In this document: positions 14,147 to 61,275 of the stretch, in pieces
Numbering within the stretch: the first letter of the stretch is position 1
Layout of the letters: every line of letters begins with the position of its first letter
Translations under genes and position numbers: made by a program
Notes under the pieces: generated by a model
What the model was told of the DNA's origin: nothing
Seen by the model: only the letters and a program-made list of their open reading frames with translations
Database searches by the model: none
Virus record (IMG/VR): IMGVR_UViG_3300003890_000025
Location: 1-64,000 of that record
Reading direction: 5' to 3' (one strand)
Length of the DNA: 64,000 nt
Source: a virus

Positions 14147-16648
14147 TTATACTCCAGTTACCTGAGCCCTAAACTTTATAGTACTACTAACGTGGCCTGA
14201 TAAGTTACTACTGGTATATTGTATTTGACCAGCAGTAGTTATACTAAACGTAATACCACTAGAATCTCCTCCGCCAGTTACTATTATAATCCAATCAGAG
14301 TCTCTTTGAATACCTAATATATTAAATACTTCATATAGATTAGTAGAAGCTATCCTAGTTACGCTTACTAAGGCCTTAAAAGACCTAACACTACTAGCAA
14401 AACTAAACCCAGTCACATCGGCTGGAGATGTTTGGTTATTAGCTGCTGAAAAGCTAGTTTCAGCTATATCACCACTACTAGGAGCCACTACATTACTTAT
14501 ATTTATATTACCTGAAGTATGTACTACTGATATACCACTAGACCCAGTAACTGTCACATTACTAAGATTACCTGATCCATCGTTACGTTGTAGAGTATTG
14601 GCAGCTCCTTGGGTACTAGGTAATGTTAAGGTATAGTCAGTAGTAGTTGCAGCGGCTCTTAATGAAGCCTTACCAGAAGTAGAGCCGTGTAAATTAAATA
14701 ATCTATCCTGTGAAATAGAAGCTACAGTAACTAGAGTATTTAGACTAGAGCCAGGAGAACCTGCAGGAGCTACTCTTAGATTTATAGCTCCCCCTGTTCC
14801 AGAACCTGTACCTCTGCCTCCTGCTAGGTCTAAATTAGCTCCATTTACATCTGGTCCGAATCCTCCAGTAGAGTTTATTTGAACTGCGACAGGACTTGGG
14901 TCTGCCACCCCAGTTCCAAAATAAGCGTTATATATAGGAGCGTCTTGAGATCCTAGTATTAATTGATTATTAGCGGTAGCAGTAGCGCCTCTTCCTATTA
15001 CTATAACTTTATCAAAGTTACCACTATTTGCTCCTCTGCCTATAAGTACAGATTCACTAGTTGTTGTAGTAGAACCAGTACCTGCTGTGGAGCCTATAAT
15101 TACGTTACTATGACCAGTATTTATAGTTAACCCTGCTTGTAAGCCTATAATAGTGTTATGACCTGCTGTTAAATCTGTACCTGCGTCTTTACCTATTAAA
15201 GTGTTACCATTTGCAGTGGTGGCTGATTTACCTGCTCTATAACCTATTATAGTATTATTAACTCCGGAACTAATTAATTCTCCTGCTTCATGGCCTATTA
15301 CTATATTAGAGTTAGATACGTTGGTAGTATTGTTTGTATTTCCTAAAAATATACCATTACCTATGTTACTTAGCATAGGCGAGCCATCGAAGAAAATAGA
15401 ACCGCTAAGGTATAAGTCCTTCCACTGTTTAGGAGTACCTCCAGCTATACCTAAATCTATTGAGTTATCAGTACCTGGTAATAAACTAGTGTTTATAGCT
15501 ACACTGGCTAAATTTGATAAAGCTAAGTTAGCTTTACCGTTTAATTGTGTTTGAATAGCACTAGTTACACCGCTTAAATGACCTAATTCAGTACTAGTTA
15601 CTGAACTAGGTTCTATTACTCCACTAGTACTAGATTGTAAGGCTCTAGAGGCTGTTAAAGCCGCTAGTTTAGCTACTGCTATAGCTGCTCCAGTAGATAC
15701 GTCAGCGTCTACTATAAGAGAACTAGATAGGTTACCAGATCCATTATTATGTATAACTCCTGGTACAGTAAATACTGATATTGTAGGGGCTACATTAAAG
15801 GTTTTAGCTCCACCTATAGTTTGAGCGCCTGAGGTTAATACCCCAGGATTAGAACCGTCTGCTGGCTGTAGAGTTAATACTTGAGTGCTTAAACTAGCTC
15901 CGCTAGAATTCGGAGAAGAGCCTACTGCAGCTAGGGTTAAAGGGTCATGAGATGATTGATCTAGTGTTATACCACTAGCACCTGGTACTATAGTAGCCTC
16001 TCCTGCTGTATTAGGTGCTTTTAGCTTCCACGAGTTTCTATCACTTGATACTTTAACGTGTCCTGTAGGAGTAGAAGCCTCTTCAACCTCAATACCAGAA
16101 CCAGCACCACTACCTGCTCCTCCACCATCATTTAAAGTTATTAATGAATCAGTTACGTTTAAATTAGTTACGTTCTGATTATTAACACTACCTATTATAT
16201 TTACTGTAGCTGTTGGGTGACCTATATTAATAATAGCAGCATTATTAACCCCTAGAGATAAAGTAGCAGATGGACTTACGTCTATACCACCTTCTGCTAA
16301 TATTTCACCCTGAGCTGTTATGTTCTCTACCTCTAAAGTATTAGTAGTATCATTAAAGGCTAAGTTTAATACATCCTCAGTTAAGTTACCATTAGAATCA
16401 GCAAAAGGTATAGCTTTATGTGTTAGTCCTACTAATCTACCAGCTAATACCCAATTAGTATTAGTGCCACTGTCTTGTTTTATATAAATCTTACCAGTAG
16501 TAGTGCTAATGTAAACGTCACCCTTATCTCCAGCTACGCTGGTTACGCTAGGGTCTAAATTGCCAGCCTGTATAGAAGCACTTTCTAAAAGCTTTAATTT
16601 AGCTTTTAGTGACTTTACTATCGCACCCTGAAAAATAACTGCTGGCAT
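14147..16648 (-). CDS. Tail fibre with YadA-like head repeats
   Basis: 833 residues, rich in N, T, S and G. Residues about 160-220 contain NVTDSLITLNDGGGAGSGA and GHVKVSSDRNSWKL, a domain common to phage fibres. Residues about 440-570 hold repeats of the type NTIIGYRAGKSATTANGNTL and NVIIGSTAGTGS, resembling the collagen-adhesin-like heads of trimeric autotransporters, so a trimer is likely. The C-terminus (FSITTAGQIQYTSSNLSGH, IKFRAQVTG) is a beta domain shared with the 480-bp gene at 21436. It directly follows one of the three small virion paralogs. Confidence 0.75.
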   Translation of the reverse strand: MPAVIFQGAIVKSLKAKLKLLESASIQAGNLDPSVTSVAGDKGDVYISTTTGKIYIKQDSGTNTNWVLAGRLVGLTHKAIPFADSNGNLTEDVLNLAFNDTTNTLEVENITAQGEILAEGGIDVSPSATLSLGVNNAAIINIGHPTATVNIIGSVNNQNVTNLNVTDSLITLNDGGGAGSGAGSGIEVEEASTPTGHVKVSSDRNSWKLKAPNTAGEATIVPGASGITLDQSSHDPLTLAAVGSSPNSSGASLSTQVLTLQPADGSNPGVLTSGAQTIGGAKTFNVAPTISVFTVPGVIHNNGSGNLSSSLIVDADVSTGAAIAVAKLAALTASRALQSSTSGVIEPSSVTSTELGHLSGVTSAIQTQLNGKANLALSNLASVAINTSLLPGTDNSIDLGIAGGTPKQWKDLYLSGSIFFDGSPMLSNIGNGIFLGNTNNTTNVSNSNIVIGHEAGELISSGVNNTIIGYRAGKSATTANGNTLIGKDAGTDLTAGHNTIIGLQAGLTINTGHSNVIIGSTAGTGSTTTTSESVLIGRGANSGNFDKVIVIGRGATATANNQLILGSQDAPIYNAYFGTGVADPSPVAVQINSTGGFGPDVNGANLDLAGGRGTGSGTGGAINLRVAPAGSPGSSLNTLVTVASISQDRLFNLHGSTSGKASLRAAATTTDYTLTLPSTQGAANTLQRNDGSGNLSNVTVTGSSGISVVHTSGNINISNVVAPSSGDIAETSFSAANNQTSPADVTGFSFASSVRSFKALVSVTRIASTNLYEVFNILGIQRDSDWIIIVTGGGDSSGITFSITTAGQIQYTSSNLSGHVSSTIKFRAQVTGV

Positions 16649-24011: not shown

Positions 24012-25001
24012 TTAGGACTTTCGTAACCAATCCTTAATACTCATCTTTTCCTTACCATTCTGTTTCTGTTTATCTACAGAAGATGAGGACTGTACTGGTA
24101 GGGATGGCTTAGACGTTTCGCTTTTAATTTTAGCTACTTGTCTCTTTCTAACCCTCTTTAAATTCTCTTGTCCTATTAGATTTTCTAATATATCCTCTGG
24201 ACTCACGCTTAATAGGTTTTGAATGTCTTTATGCATCTCTTTCTTAACTATGTTCATAGCTTGTTTAGGAGTAATATCCTTATCAGACTTGGCAAAAGAC
24301 AGCATAACATCAGTAAACCTTTTAAGAACGTATGGAGATCTCGGTAGTCCAGTAACCTCGAAAGCCTCTTGAATCTCTTCTTCTAGCTTCATTTCTTGCT
24401 CTTGAACTAGTCTTTCATACTCAGCCCTATCTCTCTCCTCCTTTTCTCTTCTACGCTCCTCCCTTTCCCTTTCTAGCTCTCTCTGAAGTCTTTCTTTTTC
24501 TCTTACTTCTGGAGATTTTTGCTCTTCTTCTAATTCCCTAGATAATATCTTTTTAGCAAACTCTACCACCGCTTTCTCGCTACCTAAAATGTCAGGATCT
24601 GCTAATACTCTCTCTGGATCTGTTCTAAGTAATTCAATAAGTTGAAAAGCTTCTTGTTTAATTCTAGCAGCTTCAGCCATTCTTTTTTGACCAGCTTTAC
24701 CTAATTGAGCGTACTTTATCATCTCTTCTTGAGATAATTCTAGCTCTTCTCCGTCTACTTTAATCTTATAGTAACCTGGATTTTCTGTTGAGGCTTTAGC
24801 TTGAACTGACTTAGCAGCCTTATCGGCCTTAGCTATTTGATTAGGGTCTGATGAAACCTCTTTTGACTCATCTATAGAAGTATCTTCAGACTCAACATTA
24901 CTGTCTGTACTTTCTGACAATTCTTGACTTGATTCTATATTAGCTGATTCTACAATGTTTTCAGCAGCTTCTGGAGCTGATGCTCCTATATTCTCTGACA
25001 T
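24012..25001 (-). CDS. Capsid scaffolding protein
   Basis: 329 residues, acidic and disordered at the N-terminus, with GYYKIKVDGEELELSQEEMI (about 76-95), a central highly charged coiled coil (LQRELEREREERRREKEERD) and a basic helical C-terminus ending SIKDWLRKS. This is the usual layout of podovirus scaffolds, whose C-terminal basic end binds capsid. The gene is transcribed just before the major capsid gene. The start has AAAGGAGATAA upstream. Confidence 0.8.
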   Translation of the reverse strand: MSENIGASAPEAAENIVESANIESSQELSESTDSNVESEDTSIDESKEVSSDPNQIAKADKAAKSVQAKASTENPGYYKIKVDGEELELSQEEMIKYAQLGKAGQKRMAEAARIKQEAFQLIELLRTDPERVLADPDILGSEKAVVEFAKKILSRELEEEQKSPEVREKERLQRELEREREERRREKEERDRAEYERLVQEQEMKLEEEIQEAFEVTGLPRSPYVLKRFTDVMLSFAKSDKDITPKQAMNIVKKEMHKDIQNLLSVSPEDILENLIGQENLKRVRKRQVAKIKSETSKPSLPVQSSSSVDKQKQNGKEKMSIKDWLRKS

Positions 25002-39375: not shown

Positions 39376-39576
39376 TTAGTTCTTCTTGAAGAAGTCTCTT
39401 AGCTTTTTAAAAGCTGGTTCATTAAAAGGCTTAGACATTTCTTCTAGTGTCTGTCTACCTCTACCCCAACCAGCTTTAGCTAACTTTTCTCTATATTCTC
39501 TCTTACGTCTTTCTTTTTCTTCTTCGTCCAACTCTAAGTCTTTATCTTCTAAGTCTTTGTAATCACCTCTTGGCAT
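39376..39576 (-). CDS. Small charged protein
   Basis: 66 residues, MPRGDYKDLEDKDLELDEEE, then arginine-rich helix and AGWGRGRQTLEEM. The ATG at 39576 is chosen for its AGAGGGTTAATAAT leader; an upstream in-frame ATG lies inside the AP2 gene. Nearly the same leader precedes the AP2 gene. Unknown function. Confidence 0.5.
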   Translation of the reverse strand: MPRGDYKDLEDKDLELDEEEKERRKREYREKLAKAGWGRGRQTLEEMSKPFNEPAFKKLRDFFKKN

Positions 39577-39580
39577 ATTA

Positions 39581-39811
39581 TTAACCCTCTGTGTTAACGG
39601 ACAGCCCGTTAGAGGCTGTCCGATCTTCACTATATTTACCTTGTTTTATATCTTCTAAAGCTTTAAGGTAAGTTTCATTAGCTTCTTCTTCAGTTCTATG
39701 GTAACCGAAATGTTTAGGCTTACCATTAACTTTAATAACTACTTTCCATTTCTTAATTCTACGAGTTTTATCGTACGATACGCCTTTGTATTTAGATGAT
39801 TTAGGTAACAT
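39581..39811 (-). CDS. Stand-alone AP2 DNA-binding protein
   Basis: 76 residues, essentially one AP2/ERF domain: SSKYKGVSYDKTRRIKKWKV, GKPKHFGYHRTEEEANETYL. The conserved KGV.(Y/W) start, W before the second strand and the helix EEAN..Y..A are present. Likely a sequence-specific DNA-binding protein, perhaps a relic of a homing endonuclease or a regulator of this mini-operon. It is the first protein gene downstream of the structured RNA region. Confidence 0.7.
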   Translation of the reverse strand: MLPKSSKYKGVSYDKTRRIKKWKVVIKVNGKPKHFGYHRTEEEANETYLKALEDIKQGKYSEDRTASNGLSVNTEG

Positions 39812-39824
39812 TATTAACCCTCTA

Positions 39825-39849
39825 TTGAGTATTTGTTTAACGTACTCAA
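39825..39849. repeat. Inverted repeat in the AP2 leader
   Basis: TTGAGTA (39825-39831) and TACTCAA (39843-39849), perfect 7-bp arms with an 11-base loop, starting 14 bases upstream of the AP2 ATG. It could be an operator for the AP2 protein or a leader hairpin. Confidence 0.5.
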
Positions 39850-40316
39850 CCCAAACTAAGGAAGTCTATATAGGCTCATTCTATATAGTGTTGATACTGA
39901 CTATGTGGTAAATTTTGGGTAGGCTTCGCCTATATAGACCTATTATGTTTATAATAGAAAGGCCTTGTTAGGTTGACCGCCTAGTAACATTCTGCACCGT
40001 ACTCGGTTACCCCCTGACACTGACGCTAGTGGGTTAGGCTATGTCAGTAGAGAGGTGCTTTCGGGGCTAGGCTGTTACTGCCCATAGAAAGCCTCTTTCT
40101 CGCAGAGCTGTATGTTGTCTTTAGCTGGGTTATAAGGGTCTTAGCCTCTTTAGTCCAGCTCCATTTCAGCTTATTAAGCATCCCTGTAGACCTCACTCCG
40201 CTTGTCTCAGACTATACCCCCAGAGTCATACCTTATTTCAGGTGTTCCACTACCATAATTAGTAGTGTTCTGGGTTAAGACACGTTTTGTACTCTATACG
40301 TCACCGTATAGGTCGC
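39850..40316 (-). ncRNA. Candidate large structured noncoding RNA
   Basis: About 470 bases without a convincing gene and GC-richer than its surroundings. Read leftward from the promoter at 40323-40328, hairpins follow in close order: CTATACG-GUGA-CGTATAG (a GNRA loop, near 40293-40310); an outer CCCAGA/TCTGGG stem enclosing CACTAC/GTAGTG and ACCT/AGGT hairpins (about 40220-40273); AGAAAG-AGG-CTTTCT (about 40086-40100); CAGTA/TACTG; ACCG-AGTA-CGGT; CTATTAT-AAAC-ATAATAG; TAGGC-GAA-GCCTA. Loops favour the leftward strand. Size and ornate folding recall phage large RNAs such as GOLLD or ROOL, but I cannot match it to either. It may also serve as a long leader for the AP2 operon. Confidence 0.5.
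39864..39939. repeat. Perfect 12-bp inverted repeat
   Basis: GTCTATATAGGC (39864-39875) and GCCTATATAGAC (39928-39939) enclose about 52 bases that contain a further CTATATAG. The arms could close the 3' end of the leftward RNA or be protein sites. Confidence 0.6.
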
Positions 40317-40321
40317 ATATT

Positions 40322-40356
40322 TATTATAGCATATTAAATCCAAATATGCTATAATT
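40322..40356. promoter_or_regulatory. Back-to-back -10 elements in a perfect inverted repeat
   Basis: TTATAGCATATT and AATATGCTATAA form 12-bp arms around a short loop. Each arm contains an extended -10, TGCTATAAT: rightward at 40350-40355 (gene at 40365) and leftward at 40323-40328 (structured RNA). No good -35 is seen for either, so they depend on the TGN extension or an activator. The symmetry itself could be an operator. Confidence 0.55.
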
Positions 40357-40364
40357 ATTTTATT

Positions 40365-40643
40365 ATGTCTAAAGGTATGAAAACATTATTCTTTTTAAAC
40401 ATTTTCTATGAATTTATAAATAAATATGATTCTAAATTACCTTTATACGCCACTTATACAGAACTTGAATGTTTAAGTAATTCAGAAGAACTTAAGTGGG
40501 ATAACGGTAAGCCTGCAATAAAATTTCTAAGTAAATATAAACCAATTGATCGTAGAGCAGTTATAATAGCAGGACACTATTTCAAAAGTAATGAAAAATT
40601 ACAAACAATTAAAAACAGACTAGCAAGAAAGTCAATTATATGA
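40365..40643 (+). CDS. Unknown protein
   Basis: 92 residues, basic, with LFFLNIFYEFINKYDSKLPL at the start and RRAVIIAGHYFKSNEKLQTI later. No recognised fold. The ATG is only ten bases beyond the rightward -10 box, so the message has almost no leader. It overlaps the exonuclease gene by four bases. Confidence 0.5.
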   Translation: MSKGMKTLFFLNIFYEFINKYDSKLPLYATYTELECLSNSEELKWDNGKPAIKFLSKYKPIDRRAVIIAGHYFKSNEKLQTIKNRLARKSII

Positions 40644-41212
40644 AACTCATAGCTATAGACCTAGAGCTTAATAACCCTAAAACTAATCAATCTATAATCC
40701 AAATAGGTGCAGTGGTAGGAGATTTAAATTTAAAAACTATTATTGAGGAATATAAAGCCAATATTCGACTACCTGAAGGTGAACTACTACAGGACTATAT
40801 TAGTAATTTAACTAATATCAAGCCCCAAGAAGTAGAAGGTAACGGATTAAGTCTAAAAGAGGCTGTAAAAGACCTCCATAACCTAGTCACTAAATACGAC
40901 TGTTTAAAATCGCCTATAACGTGGGGTGGAGGTGACTTGCCACTCTTACGTCAAAAGTACCTAGAATCTCTCAATGGTGAGCCTTTAAACACGTTTAATT
41001 GGCCTTTTGGTTGGAGGGAGCTGGACGTAAAAACAGTCTACCAGACTAGGTGTTTAGCTTTAGGCCTAAAACCACAGGGGTCTTTAGCTAAAAGTATGAC
41101 TAAACTAGGCCTGAGGTTTCAGGGGACTAAGCATAACGCATTAGATGACGCTAAGAATACTTTATTATTATATTATAAGTTATTGGAGGATTATAAAATT
41201 AGATTATGTTAA
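40640..41212 (+). CDS. DEDD-family 3'-5' exonuclease
   Basis: 190 residues. Exo I IAIDLEL (D7, E9), Exo II-like WGGGDLPLL (D99) and Exo III HNALDDAKNT (H165, D169/D170) give the DEDDh set of DnaQ/RNase T-like exonucleases. Likely a stand-alone proofreading or RNA/DNA trimming enzyme; the family A polymerase at the right edge is leftward and distant. The gene overlaps both neighbours by a few bases. Confidence 0.8.
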   Translation: MKLIAIDLELNNPKTNQSIIQIGAVVGDLNLKTIIEEYKANIRLPEGELLQDYISNLTNIKPQEVEGNGLSLKEAVKDLHNLVTKYDCLKSPITWGGGDLPLLRQKYLESLNGEPLNTFNWPFGWRELDVKTVYQTRCLALGLKPQGSLAKSMTKLGLRFQGTKHNALDDAKNTLLLYYKLLEDYKIRLC

Positions 41213-41607
41213 ACTTTAAAATTCAATCTTTTATAAATATAGTTTTAATTTTTATTCTTATTAATCTTAATCAACACTGTAATAACACTGATAAAACACC
41301 GATAAAGCCACCAACGACAGAACCCAGTCCTACTCCAGAGCCTAAGCCTGAAGAAAATTTAGTAGCTAAAGGTAAAGCTATTTACCGTAGAAACTGTATT
41401 AGTTGTCATAATATTAACCCTAAGTTAGTTGGTTCTGTAGGGCCTGATTTATACGGGTCTAGCTTAGATTTATTAAGGTCTAAAGTTATATATGGAACTT
41501 ACCCAAAAGGCTATAAACCTAAACGTAATACTAAAATAATGCCTAAGTTCCCTAGTCTTGAACCTAATATAGAGGCTATAAAAGAGTTTCTAAATTCTGA
41601 TTTATAG
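41206..41607 (+). CDS. Monohaem class I cytochrome c, probable lipoprotein
   Basis: 133 residues. A hydrophobic signal (about 9-22) ends at C25, a possible though non-canonical lipobox; a proline/threonine-rich linker (31-50) follows. The domain has the haem site CISCH (C64, C67, H68), GPDLYGSS, and a candidate axial Met in KIMPKFPSLEP (M112), then a C-terminal helix: the full class I layout in about 80 residues. The protein should carry covalent haem on the periplasmic side, made by the host maturation system. Its gene overlaps the exonuclease by seven bases, so it is a genuine part of the phage operon. Confidence 0.85.
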   Translation: MLNFKIQSFINIVLIFILINLNQHCNNTDKTPIKPPTTEPSPTPEPKPEENLVAKGKAIYRRNCISCHNINPKLVGSVGPDLYGSSLDLLRSKVIYGTYPKGYKPKRNTKIMPKFPSLEPNIEAIKEFLNSDL

Positions 41608-43490: not shown

Positions 43491-43530
43491 TACGTAAATA
43501 TTTGTTTTACGTTTACTAGCACTTTAAACC

Positions 43531-43860
43531 TAGTTACTCAATTATAAACTAACCTACTCTACTTACTTATATAACTTACAAAATAACCTAATCCATAACT
43601 AGTTATTTATTAGCTAGTACTAAGTCTATTAGTTACTCAATATAATTTAAAACCTTACCACCTAGTACTAGTCTTAGACCTAATACTAAACTTAGCTTTA
43701 AACGCTTTTAAAAGCTCTATAAGCTTTTTAAATAGGTGTACGTGTAGGGTAGTAGCCTAACACTAGTCTAAACTCTTATAAAGGCTTTAAAACAGTTATA
43801 GCTAGTATAGTCTATTTATAGTTACTCGTTGGTTAGGTTAGCTGCTGGGAGGTTACTCGG
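43531..43860. repeat. Dispersed TAGTTACTC repeats
   Basis: TAGTTACTCAAT occurs at 43531 and 43630, TAGTTACTCG at 43819 and GGTTACTCGG at 43851, all in the same orientation within the gene-free region. They may be protein-binding boxes for initiation or regulation; spacing is irregular. Confidence 0.45.
43704..43732. terminator. Hairpin with T-tracts on both sides, possible bidirectional terminator
   Basis: AAAAGCT-CTATA-AGCTTTT (43710-43728), a perfect 7-bp stem, follows a palindrome GCTTTTAAAAGC and is bordered by T runs on either strand. Weak AT-rich stem; could instead be an origin-associated structure. Confidence 0.3.
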
Positions 43861-44140
43861 GTGGAGGAGGGGAGAGTGAGTGTGTGGGAAGCCCCCGACC
43901 GAGCCCCCTCGACGTCCCCTGGGGGGAGGGGGGTTGCAATAATCATGCCAAAATGTTAGGCATGACTTTTGCTACTGCAATAATCGTGCCAGTTAATTGG
44001 CATAGTTCTTGCTATAGCAATTATAATGCCTAAGAATAGCTGTTGGTCCATTGGCCCATTTCTTGCTAATGACCCATATATATATTTATATAAGTTTAAA
44101 TTATTAATTTATTTATAAAGTGTTTAAACTTTAGACAGAG
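43840..44140. other. Putative replication origin: GC island, about 40-bp tandem repeats, AT-rich tract
   Basis: 43840-43935 is strongly G/C-rich with runs of G (GGGTGGAGGAGGGGAG) and a very stable hairpin made from CCCCCT (43904-43909) and AGGGGG (43927-43932). Three tandem units begin at 43936, 43977 and 44017, each starting GCAAT and holding TGCC...GGCAT and TTGCTA; period 40-41. An AT-only stretch (about 44075-44120) follows. The region lies between divergent gene sets and contains no gene. These are the usual parts of an iteron origin with an unwinding element. Confidence 0.5.
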
Positions 44141-44308
44141 TGTCTAAAAGTTAATAGCTTAATAATAATCCATAGTTAGCTTAAACTGTCTAAAAGTTAG
44201 TCTAGTTTTTAAAATAGCTAGGTCTGTTTTATCAAGGACTTAGCTAGTGGCACAGGCTATGCATTAGTTAAAGTGTAGACTGAACGGTTACTAAAGAGAG
44301 GTGTTAAT

Positions 44309-44916: not shown

Positions 44917-45010
44917 AGTAACTCCTAAAAAAGGGGTATAATGAGCTAAAAAGAGCTAAAAATAGGAGAATACTATATAGCTCTCTAACATGTATAGAAA
45001 GGGGTGTTTT

Positions 45011-45100
45011 ATGAGACTGGCTTTGATAGTGGCGGCTTGGTGGTGGATGCCTTGGTTTCTAGCCCTCCCCATCACCTTCTTCCTACTTTCCGAAGAATGA
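45011..45100 (+). CDS. 29-residue hydrophobic peptide
   Basis: MRLALIVAAWWWMPWFLALP followed by ITFFLLSEE: almost wholly hydrophobic with three tandem Trp. AAAGGGGTG lies five bases before ATG. The codons (CTG, GCC, CTC, ACC, TTC) are unlike the surrounding AT-rich genes, suggesting recent arrival or strong selection on the peptide. Could be a lysis or toxin-like membrane peptide; inference only. Confidence 0.5.
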   Translation: MRLALIVAAWWWMPWFLALPITFFLLSEE

Positions 45101-45155
45101 TCAATTATATTAAATACTTAACACTAAGTAAGACTTTTTACAGCACCTTAACTTA

Positions 45156-45185
45156 GTGACATAACACTAAAGCGGTACGTATAAT
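45156..45185 (+). promoter_or_regulatory. Rightward promoter candidate
   Basis: GTGACA (45156-45161, five of six), 18-base spacer, TATAAT (45180-45185). The -35 overlaps the right arm of the CACTAAGT/ACTTAGTG inverted repeat, so a repressor could occlude it. Confidence 0.5.
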
Positions 45186-45309
45186 AAATTACACTATAAT
45201 GTACCATATATGTTAATATATATTAACCTATATTACTATATATATTAATAATATATTTATATTATAAAGACTTATAGACTTATTATAATAAATTTAATAT
45301 AAATATGTA

Positions 45310-45338
45310 TTGACTATACTTAAATATATAGGTATAAT
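45310..45338 (+). promoter_or_regulatory. Strong rightward promoter
   Basis: TTGACT (45310-45315), exactly 17 bases, TATAAT (45333-45338). It lies 44 bases before the ATG at 45383, which has its own AAAGGAG site, so this transcript has a normal leader. Likely drives the amidoligase gene set. Confidence 0.7.
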
Positions 45339-45382
45339 CAATTTTTAAATGTAGTCGCTTTTTAAGAAAGGAGCTTAAGAAA

Positions 45383-46079: not shown

Positions 46080-47372
46080 ATGAATAATAATAATAATAAT
46101 GATTTAGATAGAATAGTGGTTGGTGATCGAGTATATTTAGAAAACAAAATCGGTCTAGAAGAACGACTCATAGAACATTTAACGCGAAGTGATTATTTAA
46201 TTGTAACTGATATCAGAAATAACCTTTGCGATATAGTTACCCCGAACGGGACAAAAATAAACATTTTATTTTTACACAGATTTAAAAAAATACCTTCACT
46301 TAAAATTAATGAAGATACAAAAATTGTGTTAGAAAACAATAGGTTAAAATTAATTACTAATAAAGAACACCTTTCAAGAAAAATTAACAAAAAACAGCAA
46401 CTATTAATTAATGATTCGTTAAAGTATGGAAATAATTATGCTTTATCATTTTTTGGTCATAAATTAATAAATCAAACATGGAAGATACTTATAGATAAAT
46501 ACAAAGATAAATCCGTTCTAAATAATATACCTCTAGCTACAGATGTAGAGGTACCTCCTATCTGCTACAGACCAACTAACGTCTTTTTATCTTTACAAAA
46601 GACGCTATACAATCCGCTCAGTGAAAAAAGACCGATTGGAAAGGATTTTGGACGTTACTTTGGAGTAGAAATCGAATGTTTCATACCTAATAAAAACTTC
46701 GACCAAATAGCTGAATTGTTAAGATCAAATAAAATAAAGAACGTCTCTCTTGCCAGAGATGGTTCTTTAAGCATTGACAAAGATTATTGGACTCCTGTCG
46801 AATTCAGAGTTTTAACAAAAATAAATGATTTTAATAATTTAGAAAAGTTATTGGATTTATTAAACTCTTGGGGTGCAGAGGTCAATAGTACTTGCGGGCT
46901 ACACGTGCACCTAGATATGAGGCACCTAAAAAGTAAAGTCTCGGTTAAGAAGAGAGCTGAAAAATTGTTAAAATTTTTACCAATGCTCAAGGCGATGGTA
47001 CCTAAAAGTCGTATTGAAAACGAATTCTGTAAACTTGATATAAGCAGTTTTGGAAATAGGTACGCAGCTATAAACCTGGAATCTTTTAAAAAACATAAAA
47101 CCATTGAAGTACGACTTCACAGTGGGACTATTGATAAAACCAAAATCATTAACTGGTGCAAGTTATTGTATATTATAATTAATTCAAAAATTGATAAATT
47201 TTATGATTTTGATTATAACATCACGAAAGCTTGTAAAATGTTAAAATTAAGTCAAGAATTGGAATTTTATGTTCGTTCTAGAATCCGAAAATTCAAGCCA
47301 ATTCTTTTAGAAGTAGACCAGTTAAAAAATCAACCAAATCAGCCAATAGTACAACCTCACAATTCATTATAA
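46080..47372 (+). CDS. Putative amidoligase
   Basis: 430 residues. The C-terminal 240 residues match the amidoligase family (COOH-NH2 ligases with a glutamine-synthetase-like fold): FGVEIEC (194-200), LARDGSLS (225-231), PVEFRVL (239-245), CGLHVHLDM (272-280), RYAAINLES (327-335) and TIEVRLHSGT (341-350), with the acidic and His residues expected for Mg-ATP binding. The first 170 residues are an unrecognised basic domain. Such enzymes form amide or isopeptide bonds using ATP; the partner class II amidotransferase follows at 47400. Substrate unknown; peptide or cell-wall modification is the usual prediction. Confidence 0.75.
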   Translation: MNNNNNNDLDRIVVGDRVYLENKIGLEERLIEHLTRSDYLIVTDIRNNLCDIVTPNGTKINILFLHRFKKIPSLKINEDTKIVLENNRLKLITNKEHLSRKINKKQQLLINDSLKYGNNYALSFFGHKLINQTWKILIDKYKDKSVLNNIPLATDVEVPPICYRPTNVFLSLQKTLYNPLSEKRPIGKDFGRYFGVEIECFIPNKNFDQIAELLRSNKIKNVSLARDGSLSIDKDYWTPVEFRVLTKINDFNNLEKLLDLLNSWGAEVNSTCGLHVHLDMRHLKSKVSVKKRAEKLLKFLPMLKAMVPKSRIENEFCKLDISSFGNRYAAINLESFKKHKTIEVRLHSGTIDKTKIINWCKLLYIIINSKIDKFYDFDYNITKACKMLKLSQELEFYVRSRIRKFKPILLEVDQLKNQPNQPIVQPHNSL

Positions 47373-47399
47373 GCCGTTAGAAAGAAAGGACATAAAAAC

Positions 47400-48305
47400 A
47401 TGTGTAAAATTTTTGCAATGTCAAATACTAGTAAGTTAACCAGAAAAAATTTCATAAATTTACTAAGAATAGTTCATCCAATTATAACACATTCTGAAGT
47501 AGATGGTTTTGGGTGGGCAGTTCTAGGTGAATCAGGTATTTACGGAGAAAAATATATCAATCCGACGGAATTTGACTTCAGAATTTTTAATAATGTTAAG
47601 GAAAATAAAATACTAAAAGAATTAATAAAAGAAGAGGCATCTTCATTTGGCCAGGCATCTAAACCGATAGGGCCGCTTTTAATCCACGGCAGAACTAGTA
47701 CAAATGACAAAACATTAACAAACACGCATCCATTTATTAAAAATAATTGGACATTGATTCACAATGGAGTAGTAGATAATCTTGGAGAAACGTATATTAT
47801 GGATTCTACTTGCGATTCGGAGCACCTTATACATTATCTTTCGTCAGGTGGAATAGAATCTATTGAAAAATACGTCAGTGGTTATTACGCCGTGGCAGCT
47901 ATTGACCCTAACGGAAACTTGCATGTATTTAAAGACGACATAGCATCACTCTATGTAGCTTATATAAAAACTATTGATAGCTTTATTTTCTCTACCACAA
48001 AGGACATGATTTCAATAACTTGTAAGAAAATGAAATGGGAATACACAGAAATAAATCCCATGAAAGGTAATTTTTATATGGTTATAAATAAAGAAAATGA
48101 ATTATTATATAGTAGGAAAATAAAACCTTTGAAAGTTTATTACGACTCTACTAGACAAAAAGCGTCAATAGCCTTTAAGGGCAGTGTAGACACAATACTA
48201 TCAGAGTCTATAAATGAAACTCATCACTTAAGTAGATTGTCTTTAAGAGATTTTGAAGACACAGCCTACTACACAACAGACAACTTTAATAAAAATAAAA
48301 CATAG
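47400..48305 (+). CDS. Class II glutamine amidotransferase
   Basis: 301 residues. The N-terminal nucleophile Cys follows Met directly (MCKIFAM), and HGRTST (96-101), THPF (109-112), HNGVVDN (121-127) and the DSEHL stretch (139-143) form the Ntn-hydrolase glutaminase site. After about residue 230 no synthetase domain follows; the tail is polar. It should hydrolyse glutamine to release ammonia for a partner enzyme, most likely the amidoligase encoded 27 bases upstream. AAAGGA precedes the ATG. Confidence 0.8.
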   Translation: MCKIFAMSNTSKLTRKNFINLLRIVHPIITHSEVDGFGWAVLGESGIYGEKYINPTEFDFRIFNNVKENKILKELIKEEASSFGQASKPIGPLLIHGRTSTNDKTLTNTHPFIKNNWTLIHNGVVDNLGETYIMDSTCDSEHLIHYLSSGGIESIEKYVSGYYAVAAIDPNGNLHVFKDDIASLYVAYIKTIDSFIFSTTKDMISITCKKMKWEYTEINPMKGNFYMVINKENELLYSRKIKPLKVYYDSTRQKASIAFKGSVDTILSESINETHHLSRLSLRDFEDTAYYTTDNFNKNKT

Positions 48306-53674: not shown

Positions 53675-53989
53675 ATGGAAAAAACAAATAGTTTAATAGG
53701 AAAACCAGTAATAGTAAGAGCAAATGTGGCGGGGGTGCACGCAGGAATTTTAGATTCCCTAGATGGAACTGCTGCCACCTTAAAAAACGCATACCGTCTT
53801 TGGAGAGTATATACTCGCGACAAGTCTGGCTCTATTTCGGACGTAGCTGCTAACGGATTAAGGCCAGATGCACAACACTCTGTTGGTACCATGCTCGAAA
53901 CTGTAGTGATTGTTAATCCACCAGGATTAGAAATTGCACAAATGACACAAGATGCGTATGACGGTCTTAAGGATTGGGCTGGAAAATGA
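53675..53989 (+). CDS. DUF6948-like small protein
   Basis: 104 residues. LIGKPVIVRANVAGVHAGIL, AYRLWRVYTRDKSGSISDVA and HSVG...ETVVIVNPPGLEIAQM match the DUF6948 type protein found in many unrelated phages, often directly before a glycine-rich protein as here. Function unknown. The second of two in-frame ATGs is chosen because it is correctly spaced from AAAGGAA. Base composition is distinctly richer in GC than the genes on its left. Confidence 0.7.
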   Translation: MEKTNSLIGKPVIVRANVAGVHAGILDSLDGTAATLKNAYRLWRVYTRDKSGSISDVAANGLRPDAQHSVGTMLETVVIVNPPGLEIAQMTQDAYDGLKDWAGK

Positions 53990-54633
53990 CAATAATTGAC
54001 GGCTACGGCTCTGGCGATGGCTCTGGTTCTGGCTCTGGTTCTGGGTATGGTTATGGCTATGGCTCTGGCGATGGCGATGGCTCTGGTTCTGGCTCTGGTT
54101 CTGGCCACGGATCTGGCTATGGCGATGGCAATGGCAATGGCTTTGGCTATGGCTATGGATCTGGCGATGACTATGGCGATGGCTTCGGAAAAAAGAAAGA
54201 TTCGGTTGTAATCTATTTTAGGGACGGCTTAGAGTTAAAAATAGATGCCTTACCTCAAATATCAAAAACTAGAGACGGGCATATCGTAGAGCGATACACC
54301 ATTAACGGTATAGAGGGGTTTTTCGTAACAATTGCAGGAACACCATATTGCGCTCATGGCTCTACATTATCGCAAGCAATATCAGACGCTATCTGGAAAG
54401 ATGAGTCAAAAAGGCCGTCACTTGAATCGTTAAAACAAGAAATAATTTCATCTGGTAAAGATAGACTTATAACGCTAAAAGAGTTTCAATTATTAACTGG
54501 AGCGTGTACTGAAGGTTGTCGAATCGCCTTGAATAAAAAGGGTCTCAGTGGAAATCCGATGACAGCCAATGATATATATAAACACTTCCCCGAATGGGGG
54601 GAAAAACTTTTAAATATTCTTGGATGGAGATAA
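53986..54633 (+). CDS. Glycine-rich repeat protein with C-terminal domain
   Basis: 215 residues. Residues about 4-68 are a low-complexity GYGSGDGSGSGSGSG-type repeat of G, S, D and Y encoded by GGCTCTGGC/TATGGC/GATGGC units; the DNA repeats invite slippage and length variation. The remainder is a folded domain: IDGVEGFF-like INGIEGFFVTIAGTPYCAHG, AISDAIWKDESKR and a C-terminal helical part with C-rich GACTEGC. This pairing with a DUF6948-like gene is recurrent in phages; function unknown, possibly a surface or virion protein. ATG overlaps the preceding stop. Confidence 0.65.
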   Translation: MTIIDGYGSGDGSGSGSGSGYGYGYGSGDGDGSGSGSGSGHGSGYGDGNGNGFGYGYGSGDDYGDGFGKKKDSVVIYFRDGLELKIDALPQISKTRDGHIVERYTINGIEGFFVTIAGTPYCAHGSTLSQAISDAIWKDESKRPSLESLKQEIISSGKDRLITLKEFQLLTGACTEGCRIALNKKGLSGNPMTANDIYKHFPEWGEKLLNILGWR

Positions 54634-60780: not shown

Positions 60781-61275
60781 ATGAGTAAAGTTTATACTAA
60801 AACTGGAGATGACGGTCAAAGTAGTATAAAAGGCTGTAGATTAAATAAAAAATCTCCTGTATTTGACGCTATTGGTGATATTGATGAATTAGCTGGATGG
60901 ATAGGGTTATTAAATACGGATAACTATTTAACAGACATACAAGAGGCTCTATTTGAAATAGGAGCCTTTTTAGCTGGTTACGGAGAATTCTCAAGGGACT
61001 CTAATCAGCTAGAATATCTAATAGATGAGGCTTATAATAAACTACCTACTTTGAGAGCATTTATAATACCCACTGGACAATTACAGTCACAGTGGTTTAT
61101 AGCTAGAGCTGTTTGCAGAAGAGCTGAACGTAGCGTAGAGGGACTAGAGTCTTGTAAGGGAGTAAAAGGTTATTCAAAAGTACTATCATATTTAAATAGG
61201 TTATCAGATCTACTTTTTATAAAAGGGTATGAGTCTAATCCAAACGCTAAGTTATGGATTTCTAATAAAGATTAA
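60781..61275 (+). CDS. PduO-type ATP:cob(I)alamin adenosyltransferase
   Basis: 164 residues. VYTKTGDDGQSSIKGCRLNK (4-23), GDIDELAGWIGLLN (32-45), IQEALFEIGAFL (53-64), FIIPTGQLQSQW (94-105) and ARAVCRRAERSVE (108-120) follow the PduO family in order, including the ATP-binding N-terminal loop and the RRAER helix. Cysteine/Phe details aside, it should make adenosylcobalamin. In phages such an enzyme would serve a B12-dependent ribonucleotide reductase, but none lies in this window. Confidence 0.85.
   Translation: MSKVYTKTGDDGQSSIKGCRLNKKSPVFDAIGDIDELAGWIGLLNTDNYLTDIQEALFEIGAFLAGYGEFSRDSNQLEYLIDEAYNKLPTLRAFIIPTGQLQSQWFIARAVCRRAERSVEGLESCKGVKGYSKVLSYLNRLSDLLFIKGYESNPNAKLWISNKD

Follow-up and report, generated by a model that had tools for sequence, protein, structure and literature searches.

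A candidate structured RNA leader with a predicted end-to-end helix upstream of an AP2-like operon in a tailed-phage genome

A non-coding stretch between divergent genes of a tailed-phage genome can, when read leftward, join the two ends of a ~480-nt RNA through a 17-bp helix (P1). Our preferred but tentative reading takes the region for a structured 5' leader, specific to this lineage, of a small operon headed by an AP2-like gene. That the leftward strand gives rise to a structured RNA, whether as this leader or as a free-standing molecule, seems moderately probable. Leftward transcription would start at an extended -10 promoter within a palindrome (40323-40355), and the AP2-like operon (39811 down to 38413) would then have some 480 nt of folded RNA as its 5' leader. 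During synthesis the 5' part of the RNA would fold into a local three-way junction; once the last 20 nt emerged, the 3' end would invade this junction and pair to form P1, so that the two ends are joined a short distance before the ribosome-binding site. The element would probably govern when the AP2-like operon message appears, how stable it is or how abundant it becomes; alternatively, it would be cleaved from the message and persist as a stable RNA. The features are listed in Table 1.

Table 1. Features of the candidate RNA locus, and RNA-B and sigma-54 sites in related genomes
Feature	Location	Strand	Remark
Perfect palindrome (two 13-bp arms, 7-base centre)	40323-40355	both	putative function
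Candidate structured RNA, 5' end near 40316	39836-40316	-	~480 nt; putative transcript
7-bp hairpin with GUGA tetraloop	40294-40311	-	CTATACG-GTGA-CGTATAG
Three-way junction	40219-40274	-	closed by CCCAGA/UCUGGG; folding prediction
P1 (17-bp end-to-end helix), 5' arm	40269-40286	-	
P1 (17-bp end-to-end helix), 3' arm	39839-39855	-	
12-bp helix GTCTATATAGGC/GCCTATATAGAC	39864-39939	-	52 nt enclosed
GAGGG	39820-39824	-	Shine-Dalgarno-like, of AP2-like gene
Left flank, gene for 76-aa AP2-like protein	39581-39811	-	first gene of downstream operon
Right flank, gene for 92-aa orphan		rightward	
RNA-B	L046:4200-4560	-	G005
RNA-B	L049:16030-16390	+	G006
RNA-B	L020:4140-4480	-	
Sigma-54 cluster	G003 71141-71352		
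Sigma-54 cluster	G005 24514-24623		
Sigma-54 cluster	G006 15006-15060		
Sigma-54 single site	G001 7071		

The window analysed, 64,000 bases long, is part of a 79,148-base phage record that carries tailed-phage terminase, portal and major head genes. The candidate RNA occupies most of a 553-base gap (39812-40364) with divergent genes on both sides, and a search of the phage's own genome found the region in single copy. We judged the gap to be non-coding from open reading frame length and codon usage: its longest open stretch is 75 codons, a length reached in 73 of 500 shuffles, and none of the six frames scored as high in codon usage as the adjacent genes. The absence of a convincing gene noted in the first-pass annotation was thereby confirmed, and a coding or eroded-gene reading of the gap is disfavoured on the same grounds. 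Also as annotated, the gap is GC-richer than its AT-rich surroundings (GC 0.44; genome mean 0.34; 98th percentile of genome windows). The stretch singled out in that annotation is real and somewhat unusual.

Transcription of the region would begin at its right-hand edge. The palindrome there, presumed to be a divergent promoter or operator, carries the extended -10 motif TGCTATAAT on each strand, so that both flanking transcripts could start within it. The leftward copy (40331-40323) places +1 near 40316, in agreement with an earlier proposal that the RNA starts 7 bases past such a box. A sigma-54 promoter at the RNA start was considered and rejected, as the GG-to-GC spacing is 11 rather than 12.

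We compared the pairing potential of the leftward strand with that of shuffled sequences. The region contains five perfect Watson-Crick hairpins with 6 bp or more, against 1.07 in shuffles, and a single shuffle out of 200 reached five; the average for equal-length windows of the genome is 2.2, so the excess is moderate. The first-pass annotation had counted at least seven perfect or near-perfect hairpins. Our number is lower: five perfect ones when the minimum is 6 bp, six when it is 5 bp. Both individual elements that the annotation named were found, namely the hairpin with the GUGA tetraloop and the CCCAGA/TCTGGG pairing (40274-40269 with 40224-40219) that closes two further hairpins. P1, which the annotation did not list, argues for an RNA more strongly than any other single feature. 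By a single-bulge helix score, 2 of 400 shuffles matched this helix (17 bp, one bulge), as did 1 of 394 windows of the genome, in a test devised after the fold had been seen. The helix is confined to the leftward strand (score 33 versus 21). The duplex energy of the two RNA ends had been tried as a test but was unspecific, and the helix score was used in its place.

P1 and the three-way junction are predicted to compete for the same 5' strand. When growing prefixes of the RNA were folded, the junction had a probability of 0.87-0.98 at all lengths between 105 and 465 nt. At 483 nt the end helix is predicted, from this one sequence, to replace the junction completely, and in the full-length RNA the base pairs of P1 have probabilities of 0.67-1.0. 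The junction-to-helix switch is thus a product of folding prediction.

Folding of both strands against shuffled controls, a check proposed in the first-pass annotation, gave a mixed outcome. The z-scores lay below those of shuffles on the leftward strand (-3.5, -2.4 and -3.3 in three estimates) and also on the rightward strand (-2.4 to -2.95), and the two strands fold about equally well. They were not exceptional for this genome, as roughly 20 of 256 windows (about 8%) were equally extreme; folding energy alone therefore does not mark the region out. RNA-B, a covarying RNA of related phages described below, has an own-strand z of just -0.9 to -1.9, so that energy neither proves nor refutes a structured RNA here. 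The usual folding energy and the similar behaviour of the two strands would be expected if the gap were ordinary control DNA between divergent operons, made up of promoter, operator and regulator sites, some of them palindromic, with no functional fold. The divergent promoters within the palindrome fit this explanation, as do the lack of a same-place counterpart in relatives and the presence of further long gaps elsewhere in the genome. However, 480 bases would be a long stretch for control sites alone, and neither the GC island nor a strand-specific end helix that is rare in shuffles would be accounted for. We consider control DNA rather unlikely, though it is the alternative to be taken most seriously.

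The position of the fold relative to the downstream gene fits the leader reading. Between the RNA and the AP2-like gene, which lies 28 bases further on, a terminator scan detected no intrinsic terminator, and the Shine-Dalgarno sequence lies about 15 nt beyond P1. The leader reading thus draws on a non-coding, GC-rich divergent gap with a leftward extended -10 box upstream, on the rarity and strand-specificity of P1 together with the P1 and junction pairing probabilities and the hairpin excess, and on the lack of a recognised terminator before the gene with its Shine-Dalgarno sequence. The arrangement resembles that of structured or riboswitch-like 5' leaders of phages and bacteria, in which a promoter is followed by a long structured segment and then by a Shine-Dalgarno sequence and gene, and in which one strand takes part in two mutually exclusive pairings. 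It differs from them in matching no known leader family and in not being conserved with the gene behind it.

The lack of conservation was apparent in the two related genomes G001 and G003, whose terminases are 55-56% identical to that of this phage. Both retain the AP2-like gene (55-58% identity) and its neighbours, and the gap preceding it is 65 nt in G001 and virtually absent in G003. This weighs most heavily against the leader, since a leader essential to the gene should travel along with it; further points against are that no homolog was found, that the folding energy is inside the genome's range on both strands, and that the helix test postdates the fold. The AP2-like protein itself is small and consists of an AP2 domain alone, similar in kind to those of phage HNH endonucleases but lacking the nuclease part. 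Its gene (39581-39811) adjoins a dCTP deaminase-like gene, a pairing conserved in G001 and G003.

Beside its AP2-like gene, G001 lacks any equivalent of the segment running from 39812 to about 42200, which would fit a gap that is the remnant of an eroded gene or of an inserted mobile segment. Against such an origin, no frame is gene-like in codon usage, the open stretches are of chance length, and no relative turned up when viral and genome collections were scanned in translation; we regard it as very improbable.

Several other genes of the window were recorded. A cytochrome c domain protein (41206-41607; Pfam PF00034) has an N-terminal hydrophobic segment and a CxxCH motif, and a cobalamin adenosyltransferase (PF01923, E 1e-34) is encoded at 60781-61275. 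An amidoligase gene (PF12224) adjoins one for a class II glutamine amidotransferase (PF13522) at 46080-48305, and this pair is kept in G003. The open reading frame at 53974-54633 consists mostly of Gly-Ser/Asp/Tyr dipeptide-like repeats (GSGDGSGSGYGYG) and had no Pfam match.

GOLLD and ROOL RNAs are often found near phage tRNA islands, and group I and II introns have a conserved catalytic core and interrupt a gene. Rfam searches of the whole window at the gathering threshold gave no match to GOLLD, ROOL, OLE or HEARO; a search of 39400-40700 with E up to 10 returned nothing relevant, neither these classes nor a group I or II intron. ARAGORN found no tRNAs in the 64 kb. A group I/II intron was rejected on the empty Rfam result and the location between two intact divergent genes. 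The first-pass annotation recognised no known RNA class, which agrees with these searches, and it likened the region to GOLLD and ROOL, which they do not support: with no Rfam match, no tRNAs, a length near 480 nt and nothing terminator-like ahead of the next gene, membership in either class fails each test that could be made. A leftward structured RNA remains plausible, given the strand-specific end helix, the hairpin excess, the GC island and the 5' promoter; its placement in a giant-RNA class was not upheld.

ROOL (Rumen-Originating, Ornate, Large) RNAs are encoded by phages, are large and are structured around a multi-branched core; their function is not known (PMC12286853). GOLLD RNAs have a universally conserved 3' region, and many of them are longer than 800 nt (PMC12286853). 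The candidate would be like both in being a large structured phage RNA, and like ROOL in its multi-branched core. It differs from ROOL in having no Rfam match, nearby tRNA island, homologs or sign of a separate transcript end, and from GOLLD in its ~480-nt length and lack of a match. It could still be a free-standing, trans-acting non-coding RNA that is GOLLD/ROOL-like in function and of another class, with its 3' end made by processing or by a terminator that the scan would miss. A non-coding RNA of ~480 nt with an end-closing helix and several hairpins would suit this possibility, but there is no terminator-like 3' site, tRNA island or Rfam match, and the RNA was found in no other record; we judge it unlikely. 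More doubtful still is that the region represents a new, narrow-lineage class of large phage RNA, in which the 5' strand passes from the junction to the 17-bp end helix as transcription ends, so that the RNA would act as a "transcription complete" switch for the operon that follows, or be released from that operon.

Homologs were sought in several collections. A blastn search of phage and plasmid records found no relative of the region, and full records of the relatives identified through their terminases contained chance matches of 12-38 nt only; the best of these (G001 72219-72256, 82%) was discarded because it lies inside an open reading frame. The more distant relatives G005 and G006 had no match to the region. 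Translated spaced-seed scans of viral contigs and genome contigs gave no confirmed relative; one of the viral-contig scans counts only in part, as it rendered stop codons as Y or W. Two 16-mers were absent from viral contigs, where one 17-nt chance match fell inside a coding region. In 25 viral records plus 100 loci, a covariance model of the central domain recovered only the sequence itself, and the 92-aa neighbouring protein, an orphan, led to no relatives. These negatives hold for the collections searched at the sensitivity used; near relatives may lie outside them, and the absence of relatives is not proven.

The divergent gap at 43491-44308 (818 bases) holds an array (43880-44130) of six near-consensus sigma-54 (-24/-12) promoters, arranged as three back-to-back divergent pairs at 43935-44067. 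Arrays of this kind recur across the phage family, as clusters in G003, G005 and G006 and as a single site in G001 (Table 1). The motif TGGCA-Nx-TTGC occurs in this genome 4 times at x = 6, the correct sigma-54 spacer, and 0 times at other x from 3 to 10, and in G006 10 times at x = 6 versus at most once elsewhere. In G001, G003 and G005 the strict motif is too rare to be assessed on its own, and the evidence there is the clustering of looser matches. The back-to-back pair pattern matched at least 119 viral-contig stretches (L054-L172). Across 89 of these loci a spacing of x = 6 was seen 466 times, ~180 of which follow from the selection pattern itself, against 4-16 for each other spacing. Outside open reading frames of at least 60 aa lay 18 of 91 sites, a low intergenic share that we suspect reflects spurious short frames created by the arrays. 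No sigma-54 activator domain was recognisable in the five genomes, and host sigma-54 with a host activator would therefore be needed. The literature searched held no description of such arrays in phages, which is weak evidence of novelty. As a finding, the array appears stronger than the candidate RNA.

RNA-B is a conserved non-coding stretch of ~300 nt in G005, G006 and L020, 69-81% identical among them and located ~1 kb downstream of the sigma-54 array in those genomes. Across the three sequences, 11 of 67 predicted pairs have compensatory changes on both sides, a count reached in none of 500 shuffles and compared with 0-2 in slid controls. It has no Rfam match, and phage records gave no match above 35 nt. 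Covarying and unclassified, RNA-B also appears to be a stronger finding than the candidate RNA. The two belong to the same wider phage family and are alike in being multi-branched with a long-range closing helix; they differ in position, RNA-B not preceding the AP2-like gene, and share no sequence or model match (the RNA-B covariance model R2, with filters off, scored at best 7.3 bits against 39780-40420, where true members exceed 300 bits). This phage has an AT-rich non-coding gap at 44917-45382, ~0.85 kb downstream of its array and with an unusually low leftward fold z of -4.4. It lies roughly where RNA-B does in the relatives, but did not match the RNA-B model.

As it stands, the candidate is one sequence with no relatives, and the nearby sigma-54 array and RNA-B may matter more. 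The annotated phage records searched contained no close relative of its lineage; if real, it would give that lineage an unclassified structured RNA, with a concrete, testable two-state fold.
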